A stretch of 64,000 nucleotides of DNA, taken from assembly GCA_003278545.1 (NCBI GenBank), contig QCEF01000005.1, positions 62,001-126,000 of the forward strand. Reading direction: 5' to 3'. The translations under genes and the position numbers were made by a program. Positions 45,932-62,020 of the stretch are shown piece by piece. Source of the DNA: Prochlorococcus sp. AG-355-N16. Lineage in GTDB: Bacteria > Cyanobacteriota > Cyanobacteriia > PCC-6307 > Cyanobiaceae. Numbering within the stretch: the stretch's first letter is position 1; every line of letters starts with the position of its first letter. The notes beneath the pieces are model-generated. The model was not told the DNA's origin. It did not search any database and saw only the letters and a program-made list of their open reading frames with translations.

Positions 45932-47461
45932 ATGGAATTAGAAGCAAAATTAGATGAAATAAATAAACCAATAATGGTCCTGGGCACTTCCAGTGGAGCA
46001 GGTAAATCTTTAACAGTTACTGCTATTTGCAGGATTCTTAAAAATTTAGGAGAAGAACCAATACCTTTTAAAGGACAAAATATGAGTAACAACGCATGGG
46101 TTGATTGGGAAGGTGGAGAGATGGCATATTCACAAGCAATTCAAGCTTTTGCTTGTGGTATTAATCCCTCTGCAGAGATGAATCCCATTTTATTAAAACC
46201 ACAAGGAAACTCAATAAGCGAGGTGATTCACCTTGGCAAAAGCATAGGGATTACAACCGCAAAAAATTACTATAAAGAATGGTTTATTCCAGGCTGGGAA
46301 GTAATTAAAAAAAGTTTAAACTCTATTTACGAACGGAATCCGAATTGCCGTTTAATTATCGAAGGAGCTGGAAGTCCGGTAGAGATGAATTTAATTCATA
46401 GAGATCTGACTAATTTAAGAGTTGCTAAGTATTTAAATGCAAATTGTATTCTTGTTACTGATATTGAAAGGGGAGGCGTATTTGCGCAAATAATTGGGAC
46501 TCTTGAATTAATGAAGCCTGAAGAGAAGAAGCTTATTAAGGGGATTATTATAAATAGATTCAGAGGAGACCTGTCATTATTTGAAGACGGAAAAAAGTGG
46601 ATAGAGAATAAAACTCAAATCCCTGTCGTTGGGATTATTCCATGGTTAAATGATTCATTTCCTCCGGAAGATTCTTTAGATTTGCTTGAAAGAAAATCCC
46701 ATTTCAATAAACCTGAATTAAAAATTGGAATTGTAAAGTTGCCTTCTATAAGCAACTTTTCAGATTTTGACCCTTTAGAAAATGAAGAAACAATATTAAT
46801 TGAATGGATTAGAGAATCACAAAACCTCAGTAAGTATGACTTCATTATTCTGCCTGGTAGTAAACAAACGATTAAAGATCAAATATTTCTTGAAAATTCT
46901 GGCTTATCTCAGGATATAAGGGAATATTCAAACAACAACGGAAATATTATTGGAATATGTGGAGGTTTACAAATGTTGGGGACTACACTTGAAGATCCTT
47001 ATTTTAAAGAGGGTTCCAAAAATAATTCTGAACAAAAAATAAAAGGAATTGGAATATTACCATTAAAAACAACATTCTTAAAGAAAAAATTAACACGTCA
47101 AATCAACTCTGAATCTATATGGCCATGTCAATCAGAAATTAACGGGTTTGAAATTCATAATGGTCAAACTGTATTGGACGACATGGAAAGTTCATTAAAG
47201 ATTAACCCTATTTTTAAAGATTTAAATCTTGGTTGGTACAAAGAAAATAATAAAGGGGGGTCTATTGCAGGAACATACATTCATGGAATCTTTGAAAATG
47301 ACAGTTGGCGTGAGCAATATATTAATTTAATAAGGAAGAGTAAAAATCTACCAATATTAAATAAAAAATCAATATCTTATAAAGTGAAAAGAGAATCAAT
47401 TATTGATAATCTTGCGAATGAATTCCACAAACATTTAAATCTCAAATCATTTTTAAGTTGA
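45932..47461 (+). CDS. cobQ: Cobyric acid synthase CobQ
   Basis: The 509-residue enzyme amidates adenosylcobyrinic diamide in cobalamin synthesis. It has the P-loop-like GTSSGAGKSLTVTAICRIL and a C-terminal glutaminase domain with the Cys in GICGGLQMLG and the His in YIHGIFEN. It overlaps the ferredoxin gene by 4 nt. Confidence 0.96.
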   Translation: MELEAKLDEINKPIMVLGTSSGAGKSLTVTAICRILKNLGEEPIPFKGQNMSNNAWVDWEGGEMAYSQAIQAFACGINPSAEMNPILLKPQGNSISEVIHLGKSIGITTAKNYYKEWFIPGWEVIKKSLNSIYERNPNCRLIIEGAGSPVEMNLIHRDLTNLRVAKYLNANCILVTDIERGGVFAQIIGTLELMKPEEKKLIKGIIINRFRGDLSLFEDGKKWIENKTQIPVVGIIPWLNDSFPPEDSLDLLERKSHFNKPELKIGIVKLPSISNFSDFDPLENEETILIEWIRESQNLSKYDFIILPGSKQTIKDQIFLENSGLSQDIREYSNNNGNIIGICGGLQMLGTTLEDPYFKEGSKNNSEQKIKGIGILPLKTTFLKKKLTRQINSESIWPCQSEINGFEIHNGQTVLDDMESSLKINPIFKDLNLGWYKENNKGGSIAGTYIHGIFENDSWREQYINLIRKSKNLPILNKKSISYKVKRESIIDNLANEFHKHLNLKSFLS

Positions 47462-47709
47462 AAGAGACAAATATTAAAGTAATATGGCCAAACAATAGAG
47501 AAACCTTTGTTTCAGAGGGAGATGACTGGTTTTCTTCTGCTAAAAAAGCAGGTTTAGAAATTCCAACTGGCTGCCTCACAGGAAGTTGTGGAGCCTGTGA
47601 AATAGATGTAAATGGTGAGACAGTAAGGGCTTGTATCAGTGAAATAAAAAAAACCAAAAAAAGTACTTTAAAGGTTTCTTTAACTACAGACCCCTTTTGG
47701 GAAAAATAA
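47458..47709 (+). CDS. Plant-type [2Fe-2S] ferredoxin-like protein
   Basis: The 83-residue protein has the cluster motif CLTGSCGAC (C-x4-C-x2-C) and a fourth cysteine in RACIS. It starts TTG overlapping the cobQ stop (TTGA). It could supply electrons to a corrin or other oxygenase/reductase step. The pairing with cobQ suggests this but does not prove it. Confidence 0.85.
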   Translation: MKETNIKVIWPNNRETFVSEGDDWFSSAKKAGLEIPTGCLTGSCGACEIDVNGETVRACISEIKKTKKSTLKVSLTTDPFWEK

Positions 47710-47775: not shown

Positions 47776-47868
47776 AAAAAAAAGACCCCTAAAAGGGGTC
47801 ATCTTATGAATTCATTGAATCAAGTGTTTCCTTGTTTCCACTGATTCAATAAATTCACTCCTTCACAC
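47776..47868 (-). ncRNA. Yfr2-family small RNA
   Basis: Read leftward, a stem TTGAATCA / TGATTCAA encloses GTGGAAACAAGGAAACACT, the tandem GGAAACA loop motif I remember for cyanobacterial Yfr2-5 RNAs. An upstream TTTATAAA could be the -10 box. A GACCCC/GGGGTC hairpin with T8 (47776-47800) ends it. The exact 5' end near 47868 is inferred. Confidence 0.72.
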
Positions 47869-48006
47869 TTTTATAAATTACGATATAAATTTCTTTTTCG
47901 TGGGTGGGACGAATGGAATGTTACTTAACTGTCACATGTGCCAGTTTTTCATTTCTTGACATATAGCTATAAAAAATAAAGAAACAGGTGTTTAAAAAAT
48001 CAAGGG

Positions 48007-48087
48007 TTGAGTAATATTCAAATAGCGAAGAAACTTGGTTTAAACCGAACAACCATTACTAGAAAACTAAGAAATGAAAAACTATAA
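48007..48087 (+). pseudogene. Helix-turn-helix fragment at the island edge
   Basis: TTG at 48007 opens a 26-residue frame SNIQIAKKLGLNRTTITRKL to a stop at 48085-48087. IAKKLGxNRTTITRKL is a clear HTH pattern as in transposase/invertase or phage regulators. The frame is open slightly upstream but has no good start, so it is probably a remnant. It ends just before the distal att-like repeat. Confidence 0.45.
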
Positions 48088-48094
48088 AATAACT

Positions 48095-48151
48095 GGAGAG
48101 GGTGTTCATAGAGTCATTTTAATATGAACAGTCCTGAACAGGTTTGAACAG
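48095..48151. repeat. Distal att-like site with three phased arm repeats
   Basis: GGAGAGGGTG at 48095-48104 equals part of the 3' end of the tRNA-Ser gene at 54.6 kb. It is followed after 20 nt by three copies of TGAACAG (48125, 48135, 48145) at exactly 10-bp spacing. The layout resembles a recombinase core site with arm-type sites and is repeated at 49531-49589. Confidence 0.6.
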
Positions 48152-48364
48152 GTTTTTAATTAAAAATTTTATATATCACAAACATTATTAATGCTTTTCT
48201 TTACTTCACTCTTTAGGAAAATTAGAGACTTGTCAAAATCTTTCAATCTTATTTAATAACTAATTCTATTTTTAAATTCATTTCTATTTTTAATATTTAA
48301 TTGATAAAATCATCGCAATTTTTATCATTTAACGCAATAATAAAAAACCTACTCAGTATTTAAA

Positions 48365-49183
48365 ATGTTCAATTCATTTTTCACACTTGGAATTGGCATT
48401 TCTTTATTAATAAATCCACTAAGAGTTAAATCTGAAGAATTATCAAATAGGTTTTGTGAGCAATCAATTCGAAAAGAATTAAATAAGTTAACTTCAGAGA
48501 AATTAAATTCAAGAGAACCTTTCTTATCGAAAACTGAGGTAATTGATATTAATAATGATCAAAAAAAAGAAATATTAATTGAAAGATCTCTAGGAGGTAA
48601 TTGTTGTTCTCCTAAATTAGAAATCGTCTACTTCACTTCAAAATGTTATCCAAGAAAATATGAATTTTCAAAATATGAATGGGTTTGGGGCGGTTGGGAA
48701 GTCGTTGATTTTAAAAAGACAAATGAGGGACTATTATTAAGTGCTAATAATCGTATTGAAGGATTTGACAATAGGAAATTAGAAGTTAATACAGTCAATT
48801 ATCTTTTTGATGGCAAATCATTTAATTTCCACTCAAAAATAATAAAAAAAGAAATTGATGCAATATCAGAAATTAGAACTTCAGATTTAAGAATTGATAC
48901 TGCCATTGAGAAACAAACTTTACTGGGTTATGACATCAATAATGATCAAAAGAAAGAAATTATTTCATGTAATTACTGGGATAGATGGGGTAGATTTACA
49001 AATTGTTCTATTAAAGTTCAAGATCTTGATGAAGATATAAAAATCAACTTTAACCCTAAAAGATTAGGAATTCTAAAAGAGAAAAGTAATGGTTGGAATA
49101 TCTTAGTTTTTGATCATGATACAAAGTATTTTTTTAATCCAAAAATAAAAAATTATGAGAAAATGATTTTGAATTCTTTTTAA
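48365..49183 (+). CDS. Exported protein with two DINNDQKKEI (FG-GAP-like) repeats, 272 aa
   Basis: The signal sequence MFNSFFTLGIGISLLINPLR is followed by a domain in which VIDINNDQKKEILIER and GYDINNDQKKEIISCN are repeated, an Asp-rich, calcium-type loop as in FG-GAP/VCBS or EF-hand-like repeats. An NCCSPK pair suggests a disulfide. It is the only clear gene between the first two att-like sites. Confidence 0.7.
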   Translation: MFNSFFTLGIGISLLINPLRVKSEELSNRFCEQSIRKELNKLTSEKLNSREPFLSKTEVIDINNDQKKEILIERSLGGNCCSPKLEIVYFTSKCYPRKYEFSKYEWVWGGWEVVDFKKTNEGLLLSANNRIEGFDNRKLEVNTVNYLFDGKSFNFHSKIIKKEIDAISEIRTSDLRIDTAIEKQTLLGYDINNDQKKEIISCNYWDRWGRFTNCSIKVQDLDEDIKINFNPKRLGILKEKSNGWNILVFDHDTKYFFNPKIKNYEKMILNSF

Positions 49184-49530
49184 ACAAGAAAAAAATTTTA
49201 AGAAAGATTTTTATGCATCAGAAAATCGTTTATCGACCATAAAGTGGATTTGTAAAAATAAATTCTTACCAATCTATACAAATAAATCATCGCCTACTAG
49301 TCAAATAGATTTTTGAAGCAATACTAAATCCCATATTTAAATTGAATATTCTCTAATAATTTCTAAATAACAAACACAACACTTGGAAATCAGAAACATA
49401 TCACAAACAGACAAACCCAAATACTGAACTAAACTGTAACTAGGTGATTTTAATTTTTTTAAGAAAACCTAGTTATAAATTGAATCTCGGTGAATTTGAA
49501 ATAACTTGCAAACACCTGAAACGTAAAAAT
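49184..49530. other. Gap without a gene
   Basis: No convincing frame. The part from 49368 to 49432 is rich in ACAAACAC/CACAAACAGACAAACC words, which could be the opposite-arm sites of the first element but are not clean repeats. Confidence 0.35.
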
Positions 49531-49589
49531 TACGGAGAGGGTGATCGTGGGATGATCTCAGTTTGTCCAGTGATGTCCATATTTGTCCA
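49531..49589. repeat. Second att-like site with three phased arm repeats
   Basis: TACGGAGAGGGTG (49531-49543) is a 13-nt exact match to 54563-54575, the 3' end of the tRNA-Ser gene. After 20 nt come TGTCCA at 49564, 49574 and 49584, again at 10-bp spacing, sharing the TGNNCA pattern with the distal site. Confidence 0.65.
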
Positions 49590-49614
49590 AAGAAATATAG
49601 AAAATATCTCGAAA

Positions 49615-49635
49615 ACCCTAACACAACCCTAACAC
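49615..49635. repeat. ACCCTRACAC repeat cluster A
   Basis: Two direct copies of ACCCTAACAC at 49615-49624 and 49626-49635, preceded by ATATCTC as in cluster D. It lies just inside the left end of the tRNA-proximal element. Confidence 0.7.
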
Positions 49636-49700
49636 CAATAATTTTTTTATTTACTCATCAAAATTTATTTGGAATAATTAGTTTCAAAAAAGACTAGAAA

Positions 49701-49742
49701 ATGTTTAAATCTTTTATTCAAATTAAGATGTATTTAATCTAA
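49701..49742 (+). pseudogene. Truncated leader/signal-peptide start
   Basis: MFKSFIQIKMYLI then stop. The DNA around the ATG (AAATGTTTAAATC and the preceding AAAAGAC) matches the start regions of the secreted proteins at 49983 and 53961. It may be a broken copy of the shared leader or a tiny leader peptide for the next gene, which starts 23 nt later. Confidence 0.4.
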
Positions 49743-49764
49743 TTTCGTTAATAATTTAAAACTA

Positions 49765-49917
49765 ATGAAAACCTTCTTAATATCTGGTTTAATAGATGAT
49801 TACAGAATAAAAACAAGTATTTTTGCTATTTCTCCTAATCATGCAATAAAAGTGTTTCAACAGAAATATCCAAATGCTATTGATATTTATGTTATTCAGA
49901 ATTTATTTAATAAATGA
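49765..49917 (+). CDS. Small hypothetical protein, 50 aa (intact copy of a duplicated segment)
   Basis: ATG at 49765 opens MKTFLISGLIDDYRIKTSIF and continues AISPNHAIKVFQQKYPNAID to a stop at 49915. It has one shallow hydrophobic part. A frameshifted copy of the same segment lies at 51817-51880. Function unknown. Confidence 0.55.
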   Translation: MKTFLISGLIDDYRIKTSIFAISPNHAIKVFQQKYPNAIDIYVIQNLFNK

Positions 49918-49982
49918 ATAAATTTTTTAATTGACTTATCAAAAATAATTTGTAATCATTAGTTTCTTAAAAAGACAAAGAA

Positions 49983-50465
49983 ATGTTTAAATCCTTTCTT
50001 CATATTGGGATAGGGATGATTCTAATTTTACCTTTGCAATCAGTAAAGACTGAAGAAGTCCCTCCAGATCTTGTATATCATTCGCCGGGATGTGGAACTG
50101 GTTGCACAATTAAACAAATATCAAAAACTTATCCAGAGAAATTAGATAATGGTTGGATAAGAGTGAAGGTAGAACGAACTTGGTCTTTTAATACATCATA
50201 TCCTTATTCAAAACCAATAAAATACAATATCGAAAAAGGTGAGGAAGGGTTTTATTTTAGAGATACTTGGATTCCAAAAGTAAGTGAGGGTTGGGTTTTT
50301 GCTAATTGTTCAGAAGGTCTTTATGGAAGTGATGGGTCAAAGAAAGATATGTCTGATTCAAGAATTAGGAGCATATATTACACTGATGATTCGGGAAATA
50401 AATATTTTAACAGTTCAACAGCAGGTGGTTTTACATATATGAATTGGAAGAAGTTATGTGATTAA
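49983..50465 (+). CDS. Exported protein, 160 aa, shared leader
   Basis: The signal peptide MFKSFLHIGIGMILILPLQS leads into a mature domain with four Cys (SPGCGTGCTIK, FANCSEG, KKLCD), likely disulfide bonded. Its first codons and upstream DNA are nearly identical to those of 53961-54362, whose mature part is unrelated. No known domain. Confidence 0.7.
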   Translation: MFKSFLHIGIGMILILPLQSVKTEEVPPDLVYHSPGCGTGCTIKQISKTYPEKLDNGWIRVKVERTWSFNTSYPYSKPIKYNIEKGEEGFYFRDTWIPKVSEGWVFANCSEGLYGSDGSKKDMSDSRIRSIYYTDDSGNKYFNSSTAGGFTYMNWKKLCD

Positions 50466-50490
50466 TTACTTGTAAACAAATAGAGATTCT

Positions 50491-50637
50491 TTACTTATCT
50501 TCACGCCAAACTAAAAACCAAATTATTCCAAAAACTAAAAATAAGAAAACTAATATAGGAAAAATACTTGGTAATAAGATTAAAAAAAGAATTACAAAAG
50601 GAATAAGCAATATGCTTACAAGAATCTTAAGAATCAA
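50491..50637 (-). CDS. 48-aa membrane peptide
   Basis: TTG-initiated, overlapping the preceding stop as TTGA. It contains one or two hydrophobic helices (ILKILVSILLIPFVILFLIL) and ends VWREDK. It is the last of three leftward membrane genes in the island. Confidence 0.5.
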   Translation of the reverse strand: MILKILVSILLIPFVILFLILLPSIFPILVFLFLVFGIIWFLVWREDK

Positions 50638-50840
50638 AAGGGTTTTCCCGCTGTCCGCCTTCCTACATGCCCACCATCAAAATGAGGAACTGATTGATAA
50701 GTTGTTCCAGGAATATTTGTCTTGTATTGAGGAGTTAATAAATTAGCAATAAATAATAATCCTGTGAAAATTAATATTGTTCTTAATAGTTTTCTATTAT
50801 TTTCCAAATTTATGAAAATCCTATGAACATTATAATCCAA
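50634..50840 (-). CDS. Small membrane-anchored protein, 68 aa
   Basis: One membrane helix (LLRTILIFTGLLFIANLL) is followed by a short soluble tail with PHFDGGHVGRRTAGKPF. It overlaps the upstream gene by 11 nt and has only a TTG start. Function unknown. Confidence 0.5.
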   Translation of the reverse strand: MDYNVHRIFINLENNRKLLRTILIFTGLLFIANLLTPQYKTNIPGTTYQSVPHFDGGHVGRRTAGKPF

Positions 50841-51492
50841 TAATTTTTTCTTTCAATTTTTGATATTCTTCTTTTGAAATTAGTTCCATTTCAAAAAGAG
50901 ATTTTGCTTCAATAAGTTGCTCTCTAATACTTAAATCGGAATTATTTATTTGCTTTTGTTTTTCTTGAGTTTTTGTAATAGGTTTGTCTTTTTTCAATTT
51001 TTCTGAAAATTTATTATGTTTAACTCCCTTTTTTTTATTTTCTTGATTAGTAACAATCATGCCTAAACCACAATCATGCAAAAGTAATTTAAATGATTCA
51101 GTAGATATTTCCATAAATTTTATTTTTAGTTTTTGATCAACAATTTTTTCTTTCATTTCTCTAGCGACTCTTCTATCGTGATTAATAGCGAGTTTTATCA
51201 TTAAAAGTTCACTAATTCCTGATATTAATCTCCATATAATAATTGGTCTATAAGTTATTGAATTGCTATAAATTACTCCTCCAAGAATTTGTGATAGAAA
51301 TAAATTTGAACCAAACCAATATAACAAAGGGGTAATTGTTTTTCTTGTAAAAGAATGATTTATAACACCATATATTGGAATACAAAATATTAAAAGAGAC
51401 TTCCAACCTCGATCTTTTATTCTATTATCAAATGCATCTTCCCAAGTTAAGGTCTTATACTTTTTTATTATCGTTTTAACTTTAGATATCAT
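50830..51492 (-). CDS. Membrane protein with a C-terminal SHOCT-like domain, 220 aa
   Basis: Two or three membrane segments occupy residues 30-100, followed by a long charged linker and the ending REQLIEAKSLFEMELISKEE-YQKLKEKIIGL, a typical SHOCT (short C-terminal) oligomerisation motif. It leads a leftward operon of three membrane genes, all in the island. Confidence 0.65.
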   Translation of the reverse strand: MISKVKTIIKKYKTLTWEDAFDNRIKDRGWKSLLIFCIPIYGVINHSFTRKTITPLLYWFGSNLFLSQILGGVIYSNSITYRPIIIWRLISGISELLMIKLAINHDRRVAREMKEKIVDQKLKIKFMEISTESFKLLLHDCGLGMIVTNQENKKKGVKHNKFSEKLKKDKPITKTQEKQKQINNSDLSIREQLIEAKSLFEMELISKEEYQKLKEKIIGL

Positions 51493-51643
51493 CTTAATTT
51501 AATTTAAATATCATTTGAGAATTTGAATAATTAATTCTTTAATTATTTTAAGTTTTATTTACTTAATTAAAGTAAAAATAGATTCTTTTTAAAAAAGATT
51601 TTAATAAATTTCTACTGAAAATTCCTGACACCAAGTCTCAAAA

Positions 51644-51676
51644 ACCCTGACACTTTTATAAAAATTACCCTGACAC
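51644..51676. repeat. ACCCTRACAC repeat cluster B and duplicated segment boundary
   Basis: ACCCTGACAC at 51644-51653 and 51667-51676, separated by TTTTATAAAAATT as in cluster D. It shares ACACCAAGTCTCAAAA with cluster C. The DNA following (51690-51880) is a copy of 49640-49830. Confidence 0.7.
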
Positions 51677-51752
51677 ATCCCTCACAAATAATTTTTTTAT
51701 TGACTCATCAAAAATAATTTGTAATCATTAGTTTTCTAAAAAAGACCAGCAA

Positions 51753-51880
51753 ATGTCTAAATCTTTTACTCTAATTAAGATGTATTTAACCGATTTTCGT
51801 TAATAATTTAAAACTAATGAAAACATTTTTTAATATCTGATTTAATAGTTGATTACATAATAAAAATAGTAATTTTGTGA
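51753..51880 (+). pseudogene. Decayed copy of the 49.7-49.9 kb leader and 50-aa gene
   Basis: MSKSFTLIKMYLTDFR then stop (51753-51803) matches the truncated leader at 49701. ATG at 51817 starts MKTFFNI and stops, where the intact copy reads MKTFLISGLID; an extra T shifts the frame. The similarity ends near 51880. Confidence 0.6.
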
Positions 51881-51977
51881 AAAATGTAGAATCTTTTTTG
51901 AAGATTATTTTATTTGTTTTCGTTTAGACATTTATAATTAAAATTTTATATATCCGTACTAATTTATCTCTAATTGT

Positions 51978-52514
51978 ATGGATCAGATGGAAAAACAAAA
52001 TTTTAATTGTCCAGAATGTAATTCGAATGATTTATTTTTTAATAATTCAAACTATTTAAGATGTAATAAATGTAATTATTCTTGGTTTACAAATACAACC
52101 AAAAAAAGAACTACTTCTTTAGTTGATAAAGATATTTTATTTTATAGATTGAAAAAAAATAAGAAGGTCATTATTACTGCTTTTTTATTAATATCTGTTC
52201 CCTTAATGATAAACATTATAGGAACAACTGTTATCAAAGATTTCTTAATAAAAGTAGTTGCTTTAGTTGGTTTACTAGCATTCTTTGCTTTGATAATCTT
52301 TCTTATTTTTTGGTGGTGGAGAGCAAGAAATACATGCCCAAACTGTGATTCTAAATTCACTAAGCAATTAATTGAAAAAGAATATTTAGGAGCAGATAGG
52401 GTTTATACAACAAATACAGGTTTAAAAGTCAATAATAGATATAAAAATTACTATCAATGTCAAAGTTGTCGACATCAATGGTGGGAAGAACATGTTGATT
52501 TTTGGGCAGTATAA
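51978..52514 (+). CDS. Membrane protein with zinc ribbons at both ends, 178 aa
   Basis: An N-terminal zinc ribbon (NCPECNSND then LRCNKCNYSWF), a pair of hydrophobic segments (about residues 65-110) and a C-terminal second ribbon (NTCPNCDSKF and YQCQSCRHQWW). Both halves carry CxxC pairs that could bind one zinc each, on the same side of the membrane. No known family by name. Confidence 0.68.
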   Translation: MDQMEKQNFNCPECNSNDLFFNNSNYLRCNKCNYSWFTNTTKKRTTSLVDKDILFYRLKKNKKVIITAFLLISVPLMINIIGTTVIKDFLIKVVALVGLLAFFALIIFLIFWWWRARNTCPNCDSKFTKQLIEKEYLGADRVYTTNTGLKVNNRYKNYYQCQSCRHQWWEEHVDFWAV

Positions 52515-52633
52515 ATTGTAATTAAAAACTTTTTAGATTTATTCAATGATGATGACTCTTAATTTTTAATAGATCTTTTTCTTTAATTGATAATAATGTG
52601 AGATTTTCAGAAACTTAAATCATTTTTTTTATA

Positions 52634-53149
52634 ATGTTTAAATCAATTTTTTTTAGTGCAGTAGCGACATTATTATCATTATCGATTGAAACTAATGCTG
52701 AAGAATTTCCAAAAAATAAACATTGTTTATGGATTAGCGAAGTAATCCCAGAAGCAATAATCAAGGTGAATGACCATAAACGTTTTTCAGTTAGAGCAGA
52801 TTTAATATTTGATAAAAAAATTGTTGGAGAGATTGAAATGAGCGAACCAAATGGTTATGGTTCAAAATCATGGGTTTGGGTTACCAAAAATGAAAATAAA
52901 GTATTAGGAAAAGGAGGTCGTCTAATTCCTTTTTTTGGGAATAAACCTGCACGTGGTTTGAAATGGGACAAAGGTTTCTTTTTAAATAATCCTAGAAAAG
53001 TGATATTTGTTGGTATGGGTTCAGATCTATATTATTTGGGGTTCAGAGGTAAAAAAAGATTGATAACTGCCGCTGAAGGTTTATGGCGTCTAGACAAGAA
53101 TTGTCAATTCCCTGGAATTTTATTCAATGATAGGCACCTAGGAATATAG
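52634..53149 (+). CDS. Exported protein, 171 aa, WISEV family
   Basis: The signal peptide MFKSIFFSAVATLLSLSIET precedes a mature part with CLWISEVIPEA, RADLIF, GGRLIPFFG, KVIFVGMGSDLYYLGFR and AEGLWRLDKNC. It is a diverged paralogue of the oppositely oriented 53284-53796. The two cysteines at both ends are conserved. Fold unknown. Confidence 0.68.
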   Translation: MFKSIFFSAVATLLSLSIETNAEEFPKNKHCLWISEVIPEAIIKVNDHKRFSVRADLIFDKKIVGEIEMSEPNGYGSKSWVWVTKNENKVLGKGGRLIPFFGNKPARGLKWDKGFFLNNPRKVIFVGMGSDLYYLGFRGKKRLITAAEGLWRLDKNCQFPGILFNDRHLGI

Positions 53150-53208
53150 AAATTAAGTTCTTCTTTAAATTTTAGTTGGTAGAAAATTATTAAAATTACC
53201 AACCAACA

Positions 53209-53240
53209 ACCCTAACACCAAGTCTCAAAAACCCTGACAC
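53209..53240. repeat. ACCCTRACAC repeat cluster C
   Basis: ACCCTAACAC at 53209-53218 and ACCCTGACAC at 53231-53240, with CAAGTCTCAAAA between them as in cluster B. Confidence 0.7.
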
Positions 53241-53283
53241 TTATATTTGTTTTTATTAGATGAGAAGGTAATTACTAGGATGG

Positions 53284-53796
53284 TTAACATTTATCATTCA
53301 TTGTCCAATATCCTTCTAATGCCTGTGATAACCCATCTCTACGAAATTCATACATTACTGTAGTCCTGTAAAGAAGAGAACCCAAACCAACAAGTAATAC
53401 TTTTTTGGGTTTTATTTTATAACTTTCAGAATAATTGCTAAAACTCCTTACTGGAATATTTTTATCACTCACAAAAAAAACAAGTCGACCTCCTCCTCGT
53501 TTATCAATATTTACTCTGCCATTTTCTCTTGAGATTCCCCCCTCTAAATTCCAGTAATCGATAGCATATCCAAGAGTTCTCCCATATACGATAGATCTAA
53601 TTACTTTATCTTTGTAAATCAAATCTGCTCTTCTTAAAGACCTTGCCAATCCTTCGACATGTTTTTTTTGTTTAAAAGATGCCTCTGGTAAAACTTCACT
53701 TATCCATTCACACTGGGTATATTCATTAAAATTTTCTGATCTAACAGGAGTAAATAATGAAATTAAAAATGTAGTAGTAAAAATAATTTTTAACAT
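53284..53796 (-). CDS. Exported protein, 170 aa, WISEV family
   Basis: Signal peptide MLKIIFTTTFLISLFTPVRS, then CEWISEVLPEASFK, RRADLIYKDKV, GGRLVFFV, PKKVLLVGLGSLLYR and ALEGYWTMNDKC. It is a paralogue of 52634-53149 in the opposite orientation. Confidence 0.68.
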   Translation of the reverse strand: MLKIIFTTTFLISLFTPVRSENFNEYTQCEWISEVLPEASFKQKKHVEGLARSLRRADLIYKDKVIRSIVYGRTLGYAIDYWNLEGGISRENGRVNIDKRGGGRLVFFVSDKNIPVRSFSNYSESYKIKPKKVLLVGLGSLLYRTTVMYEFRRDGLSQALEGYWTMNDKC

Positions 53797-53960
53797 TTAA
53801 AGTTTTTTAATAATGATCAACAAACTTATTTTTAACAAACAAATTAAATCCTTTCCCAATTATTGATAAGTAACAAGTCGCTGATATTTTCAAGTATCAA
53901 TAACTTTTTTGACTCCCAATAGATTATTAGGAATAATTAAAACCCTACACACAATTAAAA

Positions 53961-54362
53961 ATGTTTAAATCCTTTCTTCATGTTGGGATGGTGATAGTTT
54001 TATTTTTGCCATCATTACCAGTTAAATCAAACGACAATATCAAAAGAAATAATCTTATTAACGATATGGTTGAAAAGAGAAGGAGGAGTGGGAAAGAAAT
54101 GAAAGTGACTATGGATGAATTTTGGGAAGAATTAAAAGAAACCAGAAAAATAAAATATGGATACGATATGCACTTTGAAAAGAATCTAGATTATTGTCGT
54201 CACTTTGCAGAAATATCAGTTCTTCACAGAGAGGAAGAATGGAATCTAAAGAATATCGTTAAATATTGTTATTACTGTATGAATACTCTTAATGGGATGA
54301 CGAGAGAGGTTAAAAAAGAAGATTTTGATATTAATAAATGGTCAAGTGAAAGGATCAACTGA
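53961..54362 (+). CDS. Exported protein, 133 aa, shared leader
   Basis: Signal peptide MFKSFLHVGMVIVLFLPSLP is almost the same DNA as the start of 49983, but the mature part is different: charged and helical with three or four Cys (LDYCRHF, VKYCYYCMN). It is the last gene before the tRNA-Ser. Function unknown. Confidence 0.66.
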   Translation: MFKSFLHVGMVIVLFLPSLPVKSNDNIKRNNLINDMVEKRRRSGKEMKVTMDEFWEELKETRKIKYGYDMHFEKNLDYCRHFAEISVLHREEEWNLKNIVKYCYYCMNTLNGMTREVKKEDFDINKWSSERIN

Positions 54363-54396
54363 GATACAAAATTTCAAATAAGAAAATATCTCAAAA

Positions 54397-54440
54397 ACCC
54401 TGACACATTTATAAAAATTACCCTTACACAACCCTGACAC
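54397..54440. repeat. ACCCTRACAC repeat cluster D
   Basis: ACCCTGACAC at 54397-54406, ACCCTTACAC at 54420-54429 and ACCCTGACAC at 54431-54440. It lies 123 nt from the tRNA-Ser 3' end, at the right end of the element, with the ATATCTC prefix shared with cluster A. Confidence 0.7.
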
Positions 54441-54564
54441 CATCAGATTATTTGTGATATGGTTTGGGTGTGTTTGACTAAACAAATTACAGATTTTTCT
54501 CTTTGATACCAATCATTCTGGACGATTTGACTATCCCTGACTACACTCTGTCTATATGAAAATA

Positions 54565-54649
54565 CGGAGAGGGTGGGATTCGAACCCACGAATAGTTTCC
54601 TATTAAACGATTTCGAGTCGTTCGCTTTCAACCACTCAGCCACCTCTCC
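54565..54649 (-). tRNA. trnS: tRNA-Ser (anticodon CGA)
   Basis: Read leftward: acceptor GGAGAGG, D arm TGGCTGAGTGG, anticodon loop CTCGAAA (CGA), a long variable arm (AATAGGAAACTATT) and T arm GTGGGTTCGAATCCCAC, closing with CCTCTCC and discriminator G. CCA is not encoded. Its 3' end faces the island and is copied at 49531 and, partly, at 48095. Confidence 0.95.
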
Positions 54650-54710
54650 GCCTGTTTAAAGTATGCACATAATAAAAGTAAAATTATGAACTATATAATT
54701 ATCTTAATTT

Positions 54711-55733
54711 TTAATTCCAACCTGCATCTTTCATCAACTTAATAGCTAATGAATTTTTCTCTCCAAGGTCTTCTACAGTGACACTATCAGGTAAAAACTC
54801 TCCAAATTTCTTTACTATTTCATTCTGATTAACTTCCTTCAAAGGATGTTCAAAAGTAGGTGCAGCTAAACCTTTACTTCCTTCAGGAGATGCTAAGAAT
54901 TCAAGTAACTGAATAGCTTCATTTTTATTTTTTGCATATTTTGCAACACCACCGGCACTAATATTTACGTGTGCAGGATTAGGAGTAAGGACCTTTGTTT
55001 TTTTCGCATACAAAGCATCTCTTCTTCCATTAACACCCGCTAACATTCTTGCGACATAATAATGATTAACAATTCCTACTCCGCATTTCTTCTTAGAAAC
55101 TGCCCTAATTATTGAAATATCACCAGGGAAGAATGGCTGGGAAACGTTTGAAATCATTCCGCTTAACCAAGCTTTAGTTTCTAATTCACCTTTTTTTATT
55201 ATTTGATTGGCAACTAAAGATTGATTGTATGGACTTTTTCTATTCCTTAAACATACTTTTCCTTTCAAAGAAGGATCAGCTAAATCATTGTAATCATTAA
55301 TCTTGCTTACATCTACTACCTTTGGATTCGCAACCATGACTCTTACTCTTCTTGTTAATGCATACCACTCCTTATTCGGATCTTTTAATCCAACAGGAAC
55401 ATCATTTTCTAAATTAGAAGAAGTAATTGGTTGAAGTAATCCAGCTTTTGCTGCATTAGTGATTCTTGCTGCATCTACAAGCAATATCAAATCTGCTTGA
55501 GAATTCTTCCCTTCTCTTTTCAATCTTTCTATTAAAGATATTCCTGTTGCTTCTATAAGTCTAACTTTAATGCCTGTTTCTTCTGCGAATTTTTTATAAA
55601 CACTTCGGTCTGTATTGTAATGTCTACCCGAAAAAACTTTGACTTCTTTTTCTGTTGAATTAACAGGAATACTTATATTTATTAAAAATGAACATGTTAA
55701 TACTGTATAAAATAGTTTTTTGAGTTTTTGCAC
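54711..55733 (-). CDS. futA: Ferric-iron ABC transporter substrate-binding protein
   Basis: The 340-residue exported protein (signal peptide about residues 1-27) has the FutA/IdiA layout: VFSGRHYNTDRSVYKKFAEE, AADLILLVDAARI-like QADLILLVDAARITNAAKAG and iron-ligand Tyr in NHYYVARML. It binds Fe3+ in the periplasm. GTG start. It is divergent from a PiuC-type hydroxylase gene, a pairing that fits iron regulation. Confidence 0.94.
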   Translation of the reverse strand: MQKLKKLFYTVLTCSFLINISIPVNSTEKEVKVFSGRHYNTDRSVYKKFAEETGIKVRLIEATGISLIERLKREGKNSQADLILLVDAARITNAAKAGLLQPITSSNLENDVPVGLKDPNKEWYALTRRVRVMVANPKVVDVSKINDYNDLADPSLKGKVCLRNRKSPYNQSLVANQIIKKGELETKAWLSGMISNVSQPFFPGDISIIRAVSKKKCGVGIVNHYYVARMLAGVNGRRDALYAKKTKVLTPNPAHVNISAGGVAKYAKNKNEAIQLLEFLASPEGSKGLAAPTFEHPLKEVNQNEIVKKFGEFLPDSVTVEDLGEKNSLAIKLMKDAGWN

Positions 55734-61366: not shown

Positions 61367-62020
61367 CTAATTTAATAAGCATAGATCCTCGAAAACAAAC
61401 TTTTGTGTTTCTTCTTCTTGATTTAAGTTTAAGTATTTTATTGTCCTCGAATTTAATATCCAATAATTGTCTTTACCCATATTTAGAAATTCATCCTCGT
61501 ATTCCAATTTTTGAGAATTTGTCTCAAGTGTAACTGGATCAATTTGTTGACTACTGTATTTTTTACTGAGAGAACCTGTTCCTGTATCTAAAAATTCTTC
61601 TACAAATATTTGTATTATGGTTCCATGAATTTTTCTGTAAACCATATTAATACAATTATTTTTAACTCTATATTTATCACCTTGATTCTTTCCTGAAACA
61701 CTCATTTCAATCCCACATTCAGAATTTTTAAGTAAATAAAAATTATTTTCTGAGTGAACCGATTCAAATTCTCTCTTTACTCTATGTATAGACACTTCAA
61801 ATAACTGAGAGGCAATACTTTTAACAACTCTCTCATCTTCTATATTTTGAATATTTGGTTTAAAATCTTTACCTAATACAAACTCACCTTTATGAAGGTT
61901 ATCATTAGTAAAAAAAATACATTTACCTTGGTAACCTTGAAAATCATCCTTCCAGGTGTAACAATTTTCATAAGCTTTTTTAAAAATCTCCTTACAATTA
62001 ATTTCTTTTAGATTATCCAT
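61367..62020 (-). CDS. DUF3386 family protein
   Basis: The 217-residue protein has FKKAYENCYTWKDDFQGYQG, FVLGKDFKPNIQNIEDERVV, SQLFEVSIHRVKREFESVHS, VSGKNQGDKYRV and MVYRKIHGTIIQIFV, matching the remembered DUF3386 family of cyanobacteria. It has no signal peptide. Function unknown. It is 76 nt downstream of pcb on the same strand, beyond a terminator-like hairpin. Confidence 0.83.
   Translation of the reverse strand: MDNLKEINCKEIFKKAYENCYTWKDDFQGYQGKCIFFTNDNLHKGEFVLGKDFKPNIQNIEDERVVKSIASQLFEVSIHRVKREFESVHSENNFYLLKNSECGIEMSVSGKNQGDKYRVKNNCINMVYRKIHGTIIQIFVEEFLDTGTGSLSKKYSSQQIDPVTLETNSQKLEYEDEFLNMGKDNYWILNSRTIKYLNLNQEEETQKFVFEDLCLLN

Follow-up and report, generated by a model that had tools for sequence, protein, structure and literature searches.

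Cargo bounded by tRNA sequences is familiar in Prochlorococcus, where such elements are called tycheposons; their defining description is said to be that of Hackl and colleagues, of 2023. Here we describe an island at the tRNA-Ser(CGA) gene of Prochlorococcus sp. AG-355-N16. The stretch of DNA analysed, called the window below, is 64,000 nucleotides long (contig QCEF01000005.1 of assembly GCA_003278545.1, forward-strand positions 62,001 to 126,000), and positions are counted from its first letter. The island very probably consists of two non-autonomous integrative elements in tandem, each bounded by attachment (att) sites and anchored in tRNA-Ser(CGA).

Several described systems come close to this arrangement. 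Tycheposons are 4-200 kb long according to one passage on them (PMC10872708), and like the island they are tRNA-bounded cargo of the same genus (PMC10872708; PMC11389934, in the parts concerned with them). Integrase-bearing relatives of the window elements also have a tyrosine recombinase. The window elements themselves yielded no recombinase, and the outer one, of 1.4 kb, falls below the tycheposon range, whereas the inner one, of 5.0 kb, falls within it. Cis-mobilizable elements (CIMEs), as treated in a section of PMC5704250, have lost their integration and transfer genes, retain attL and attR and form tandem arrays. Together with tandem accretion of the ICESt1 type (same section), they share with the island the retained ends, the lost integration genes, the arrays at one target and possible mobilization by a neighbour. 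Unlike them, the tRNA-Ser(CGA) site has several arm classes on one core, and elements as short as 213-281 bp in which no gene is recognisable.

Clusters of attC sites lacking an integrase (CALIN) are integrase-less cassette arrays that can be mobilized in trans (part of PMC11389934). The logic of cassettes moved by an integrase encoded elsewhere is the same, but the sites here have a lambda-type core with arms and are anchored in a tRNA. In the additive islands of Methylophilaceae, which span 330 bp to 42 kb, the last 20 bp of tRNA-Lys are repeated (a passage of PMC10872708), and an Alteromonas island has a duplicated tRNA 3' end (a passage of PMC5217437). There too, repeated tRNA 3' ends bound variable cassettes; those two passages, unlike the present analysis, do not describe arm sites or integrase classes. 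The attP site of lambda has arm-type sites on both sides of its core, in the P and P' arms, and a subunit of its integrase connects an arm with the core (a section of PMC4880445). The island has a core with arm-type sites on both sides as well, but its arms lie near the core (20 nt and about 7 nt), which would leave little room for IHF sites between them. As for spacing, the P'1, P'2 and P'3 sites of lambda follow one another at steps of about 10 bp. A preliminary description of the island, made from the letters of the window, knew of no earlier account of such arm geometry; to call it undescribed in principle is overstated. Among the titles and abstract beginnings listed on tycheposons, accretion, CIMEs, additive islands, arm-type sites with non-autonomous elements, Prochlorococcus integrase sites and PRE1, none describes the layout, and the original tycheposon description may contain it.

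Organization of the island

The repeated core is the 3' end of tRNA-Ser(CGA), on the low-coordinate side of the gene (Table 1). Its 13-bp form, TACGGAGAGGGTG, is present at the tRNA and between the two elements. The outermost copy retains 10 bp, with ACT replacing TAC in the flank. The 10-bp core GGAGAGGGTG occurs three times in the 64 kb against 0.04 expected, far above chance. The preliminary description was right that the tRNA end recurs exactly at these positions.

Beyond each of the two distal cores come three TGNNCA repeats at 10-bp steps, both triplets starting 20 nt past the core end. Such triplets occur exactly twice in the window, at 48125 and 49564, with 0.00 expected; the phasing and the equal distance, also reported previously, are thus verified. 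A second arm set, roughly phased at 10 bp and missed in the preliminary description, lies on the opposite side of the cores at 49531 and 54563. Each element has a left arm set after its core, and its right arm set lies close to the core that follows. At the right end of the outer element the arms are of the TGAAA/TGCAAA type, and one relative (L208; L numbers designate loci) has right arms TGACACAACT TGAACAAACC TGAAACATAA that stand equally far from its core. Tested singly, the right set at the tRNA falls short of significance (0.30). It draws its support from the genus-wide tests of periodicity and of end matching, given below.

The 38 tRNA 3' flanks of the window's genome (tRNAs lying in two pieces being counted twice) yield five core copies of at least 10 bp, and a significant arm triplet accompanies only the two in the window (0.002 and 0 of 500 shuffles). 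At tRNA-Asn, tRNA-Cys and tRNA-Pro the triplet is not significant (0.30, 0.73 and 0.25). Chance recurrence of the core or of the repeats is ruled out by the expectation counts in the window and by the lag-10 test across the genus.

Inside the arms, each element has a subterminal repeat near both ends. In the inner element this is CCCTRACAC: all eight window sites lie within the element, on a single strand and in four pairs, against 0.19 expected. Pairs sit at both ends and bound three cargo blocks. A 227-bp element in a relative (L068) resembles the left end of the window element fused to the right end at a CCCTRACAC-type repeat, and an ORF (open reading frame) similar to that at 50830-51492 enters this mini-element for about 90 bp from outside. 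It is as if cargo blocks had been added or lost at the CCCTRACAC repeats.

Table 1. Features of the tRNA-Ser(CGA) island and its borders, in window coordinates.
Feature	Position	Strand	Remarks
83-aa ORF, conserved left border of the hotspot	47458..47709	+	presumably ferredoxin-like (name assumed from the sequence)
35-codon helix-turn-helix (HTH) relic, just beyond the outermost core	47980..48084	+	HTH_24 3.2e-5; resolvase HTH_7 0.018
Outermost core copy	48095..48104	+	10 bp retained; flank ACT replaces TAC
Outer element	48105..49530	+	TGAACA arm class, 1.4 kb; one 272-aa ORF (48365-49183); integrase not found
Outer element, left arms	48125..48154	+	TGAACAGTCC TGAACAGGTT TGAACAGGTT; kept in L200, L201, L202
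Outer element, subterminal repeat, left copy	48173..48184	+	ATATCACAAACA
Outer element, subterminal repeat, right copy	49398..49409	+	ATATCACAAACA
Outer element, right arms	49497..49526	+	TGAAATAACT TGCAAACACC TGAAACGTAA (TGAAAT, TGCAAA, TGAAAC)
Core copy separating both elements	49531..49543	+	left junction of inner, right junction of outer element
Inner element	49544..54562	+	TGTCCA arm class left, TGACTA/TGTCTA right; 5.0 kb; integrase not found
Inner element, left arms	49564..49593	+	TGTCCAGTGA TGTCCATATT TGTCCAAAGA; aligned with integrase-bearing L206
Inner element, subterminal CCCTAACAC pair, left end	49616..49635	+	
Inner element, cargo span	49983..54362		ORFs 49983-50465(+), 50830-51492(-), 51978-52514(+), 52634-53149(+), 53284-53796(-), 53961-54362(+)
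Inner element, internal CCCTGACAC pair	51645..51676	+	separates cargo blocks
Inner element, internal CCCTRACAC pair	53210..53240	+	separates cargo blocks
Inner element, subterminal CCCTGACAC pair, right end	54398..54440	+	
Inner element, right arms	54528..54558	+	TGACTATCCC TGACTACACTC TGTCTATATG (TGACTA, TGACTA, TGTCTA); last step 11 bp
Core at tRNA-Ser(CGA) 3' end	54563..54575	+	right junction of inner element
tRNA-Ser(CGA), intact target	54565..54649	-	ARAGORN 54564-54650; Rfam tRNA 63.5 bits
340-aa ORF, conserved right border	54711..55733	-	taken to be futA, iron-binding transporter protein

The hotspot in other genomes

The exact 13-mer was searched for in 151 genomes, that of the window and 150 others of the genus, and is present in 34 of them, at 38 places. 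Pieces of up to 20 kb were taken from the other 33 genomes that have it. A search of 266 genomes with the left ends of the window elements added 13 loci, and one more came in through the integrase that it encodes. Two non-Prochlorococcus matches among 18 (L103, L110) were treated as chance, of which a few are expected by a rough estimate. The final set comprises 48 loci from 47 genomes, the window included; counts exclude three of 16 regions fetched, L210, L213 and L214, which are not at tRNA-Ser(CGA).

The borders are constant wherever a piece includes them: the ferredoxin-like gene bounds one side, and tRNA-Ser(CGA) followed by futA the other. Only L061 departs from this, having tRNA-Ala and no futA after tRNA-Ser. 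At the empty sites (L054, L055) the native flank abuts the tRNA core directly. At filled sites (L040, L066, L067, L056) a flank 77-86% identical to that of L054 ends at the outer core; beyond it comes an element, and it is a different right end that borders the tRNA. Relatives free of the island yet keeping both core copies, which the preliminary description had named as contrary evidence, were not seen: the 14 pieces of the 48 without an extra exact core have the tRNA core only. A 257-bp element is 97.3% identical in L056 and L060, whose 100-bp left flanks are 30% identical.

Extra exact cores are present in 34 of the 48 loci; the 47 copies delimit 42 core-to-core elements, the shortest of 97 and the longest of 9331 bp. 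L203 has four exact cores and one variant within 8.7 kb. Nine of the 42 elements are shorter than 300 bp. Five of these lack a complete ORF of 30 aa and the longest in the others has 66 aa with a TTG start (L067), so that all nine are called elements without a recognisable gene. The 97-bp unit (L037, 5996-6093 in the oriented piece) is barely more than five perfect TGAACAGGTA repeats.

The order of the two elements is not fixed. In L200 the TGTCCA element lies upstream of the TGAACA element, opposite to the window. This locus looks like a hybrid, because its TGTCCA core is mutated (to ACAGAGAGGGTG) and its TGAACA part finishes with an inner-class right end. The preliminary description took the element nearest the tRNA to be the newer one. 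This is not established: whichever core copy receives an insertion, the resulting order is identical. The window alone does not settle the order of insertion.

For the tests on ends, those at least 70% alike were removed, which reduced left ends from 43 to 31, right ends from 42 to 27 and elements from 40 to 24. Left ends were drawn from tRNA-Ser(CGA) and from integrase-holding loci at tRNA-Ser(TGA), tRNA-Ser(GCT) and tRNA-Asn(GTT). Between +18 and +50 the 31 left ends match themselves at lag 10 with a frequency of 0.525, against 0.272 after shuffling (standard deviation 0.016; 0 of 2000 shuffles). The other lags give 0.21-0.29, and the periodicity is thus one of 10 bp alone. The 27 right ends give 0.407 against 0.2745 (0 of 2000). 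When core copies are tested singly, 28 of 47 pass at p<0.05, compared with 16 of 480 random positions.

The two ends of an element also match each other. Across the 24 elements, all longer than 150 bp, the two ends of one element have 3.54 arm 6-mers in common in direct orientation, and ends of different elements 1.15 (0 of 20000 permutations). Subterminal 9-mers common to both ends number 7.0 against 0.66 (0 of 20000 permutations; elements below 400 bp excluded). Examples are CCCTRACAC in the inner element, ATATCACAAAC in the outer element, TCCCAAACAC in L120 and TCCCAACAACA in L131.

Integrases of related elements

No tyrosine recombinase was found in the window elements, as previously claimed, nor was such an integrase found in the genome they come from (95.5% complete). 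A family profile based on two integrases from loci at tRNA-Ser(TGA) and tRNA-Ser(GCT) finds members in 16 of the 151 genomes, the window's not among them. It matches seven solved sequences, one of which is PDB 1z1b (6.5e-7), presumably lambda Int. By tblastn, members of this family are encoded in two of 41 elements, and in the 42nd (L064) none is seen among its displayed ORFs. No match to PF00589 in 34 genomes falls within an island piece. The sole one in the window's genome, of 389 aa, was considered as a helper and judged unlikely, since it belongs to a widespread kind (388-404 aa, listed in 31 of the 34 genomes) and has no tRNA within the surrounding 19.9 kb (L069). It is probably a housekeeping recombinase.

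Tyrosine recombinases are present in four loci, L165, L206, L120 and L131, and the core and arm geometry recurs in integrase-holding loci at four tRNAs: Ser(CGA), Ser(TGA), Ser(GCT) and Asn(GTT). This supports the previous identification of the repeats as core and arm-type sites of a tyrosine recombinase. The integrase-bearing element of L165 is at tRNA-Ser(CGA), has TGGCAC-type arms at both ends and encodes an integrase with an Arm-DNA-bind_3 domain (7.9e-13). The 9.3-kb element of L206, at tRNA-Ser(CGA), has the TGTCCA left arms of the window and a matching right end; in alignments of five sequences for each end the mean column identity is 83% and 87%. Besides a tyrosine integrase (PF00589, 1.7e-8), it encodes a serine resolvase and a small protein of the HTH type. 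An arm-binding integrase linked to such sites thus occurs in relatives only, namely in L165 and, as an integrase, in L206.

All four loci have a small serine resolvase (L120 12754-13371, L131 10421-11020, L165 6030-6698, L206 10033-10644 in the oriented piece), identified by Pfam in three and by resemblance only in L165. L131, L165 and L206 have an AlpA- or HTH_17-like protein, and L131 has a weak match to a replication initiator (0.076). Conjugation families gave no Pfam match among 13 proteins of these four loci, which make up a minority of their ORFs. As for phages, a nucleotide search with the stretch 49480-49700 gave no match, and the L165 integrase has one relative among viral contigs, 22% identical.

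Mobile elements or relics

The traits of an att site are present in the family: a tRNA core at both junctions, an empty site, and arms on both sides, in the window at both ends of both elements. That two tandem elements occupy one tRNA in Prochlorococcus, as first proposed, is supported by this evidence. On the best reading the elements can be moved only by an arm-matched integrase acting in trans, or are relics of elements that could. Strand exchange would most likely occur within the tRNA-derived core CGGAGAGGGTG. Once the element is circular, its left and right arm sets and subterminal repeats would form a complete att site, at which an integrase of the lambda type would, by analogy with lambda itself, connect the arms with the core. 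Specificity, in the sense of which integrase acts on an element, may depend on the arm sequence, and the address on the tRNA core. Neither window element encodes an integrase, so each would move only if a matching one came in trans or from a tandem neighbour; lacking this, they would stay as inert cargo. Binding of the protein, excision and mobilization in trans are here predicted from the arrangement of sites, and for elements without an integrase we regard present mobility as evenly balanced.

A number of observations weigh against this reading. The left arms of L165 begin at about +10, not +20. Individually, 19 of the 47 core copies fail the arm test, among them the left end of L206 itself and ends of L041/L058, L042/L048 and L056/L060/L067. 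A lack of conservation of the repeats, which the preliminary description had named as further contrary evidence, is thus not seen overall but at these copies, and the arm rule is a property of the family, with weak or divergent members. Sharing of arms in inverted orientation is slightly raised too (1.46 against 0.98, p 0.037). Among the 24 elements L202 has no common subterminal 9-mer, and L061, L066 and L203 have A/T-rich ones only. Of 13 integrases, 10 match PF00589 and only two Arm-DNA-bind_3; that of L206 has no arm domain in Pfam, and the predicted fold of the L206 type, from the L112 sequence, is unusable at a pLDDT of 36. Two scans of viral contigs for a core with arms found nothing. 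Finally, frequencies of loci are biased because loci were picked for the core, the window's ends or the integrase.

The strongest alternative, which we consider possible, is that the elements are immobile relics: they were once autonomous, lost their integrase by deletion and became fixed cargo, changed only by homologous recombination and decay. The window's genome lacks such an integrase, a resolvase-like HTH relic lies beside the outer core, cores are altered (the flank at 48095; ACAGAGAGGGTG in L200), and the short elements could be deletion products. The HTH relic finds its best match, among ten proteins tried, in the serine resolvase of L206, at its C-terminal HTH (27 aa, 41%, E 0.001). 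Yet the arms and subterminal repeats of elements without a recognisable gene, such as L068, are still matched at both ends, the 257-bp element stands on unrelated flanks and the order of elements is swapped between genomes, none of which fits fixed cargo well.

A more ambitious model is one that we put forward tentatively and regard as doubtful. In this model tRNA-Ser(CGA) of Prochlorococcus would serve as the landing platform of a cassette system that resembles integrons but rests on lambda-type sites. Vectors of about 210-280 bp in which no gene is recognisable, consisting of two arm sets and subterminal repeats, would spread by themselves and load cargo, for example restriction systems, between CCCTRACAC-type subterminal repeats. 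Several integrases, each with its own arm code, would move them in trans to one address.

The two remaining explanations are very unlikely. Operators, too, typically have direct repeats phased at 10 bp, and cargo genes do come after the arms; that the repeats are transcription-factor operators lying near tRNA fragments by accident is, however, hard to reconcile with their fixed position relative to the core, their presence in elements without a recognisable gene and the second matched set at the far end beside the next core. Segmental duplication of the tRNA end and its neighbourhood, without site-specific recombination, is favoured by the shortness of the common core, 10-13 bp, but the junctions share the core only and the flanks change at it, the difference between empty and filled alleles is one of whole elements, and sister elements hold integrases.

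Cargo and surroundings

Elements with the same ends may differ in cargo: L042 has a type III and L048 a type I restriction system. One protein each in L041 and L064 matches defence models, and L062 gives a marginal match (9.6e-4); two of the nine cargo proteins sent to these models gave no match. It may be observed that the elements of L042, L048, L041 and L064 lack an integrase and are at the same tRNA. The inner element of the window yields no clear family, by Pfam for two of its six ORFs and by PHROGs for all six; judged by eye, several of the ORFs appear secreted. A repeated leader, comprising an upstream stretch and a ATGTTTAAATC-like start, precedes several of them (49633-49823, 49914-50016, 51683-51876, 53905-54004). 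The leader copies at 49701 and 51753, also read by eye, hit early stops without a gene body.

Other repeats lie nearby or elsewhere in the same genome. Just left of the island, at 47804-47872, is a Cyano-1 RNA, about 60 bp of which recur with 82% identity in contig C8 (13488-13548). A 24-bp sequence, also left of the island (47923-47946), recurs at 96% in contig C1 (35766-35789), about 230 bp from tRNA-Cys, and perhaps marks another element end there. The flanks of tRNA-Asn(GTT), tRNA-Cys and tRNA-Pro(TGG) (L228, L230, L234) have partial tRNA copies 1.3-2.0 kb away, possibly belonging to further small elements.

Significance

In Prochlorococcus islands, elements that lack an integrase are otherwise not marked by any gene. 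The att rule found here, a tRNA 3' core, 20 nt, three repeats phased at 10 bp and a matched set at the far end, can delimit them. The arm class pairs cargo elements with likely helper integrases, so that dependence on a helper becomes testable. The arrangement suggests a route by which cargo, defence genes included, arrives at a single tRNA locus of a streamlined genome. The non-coding mini-elements may be mobile vectors in their own right.

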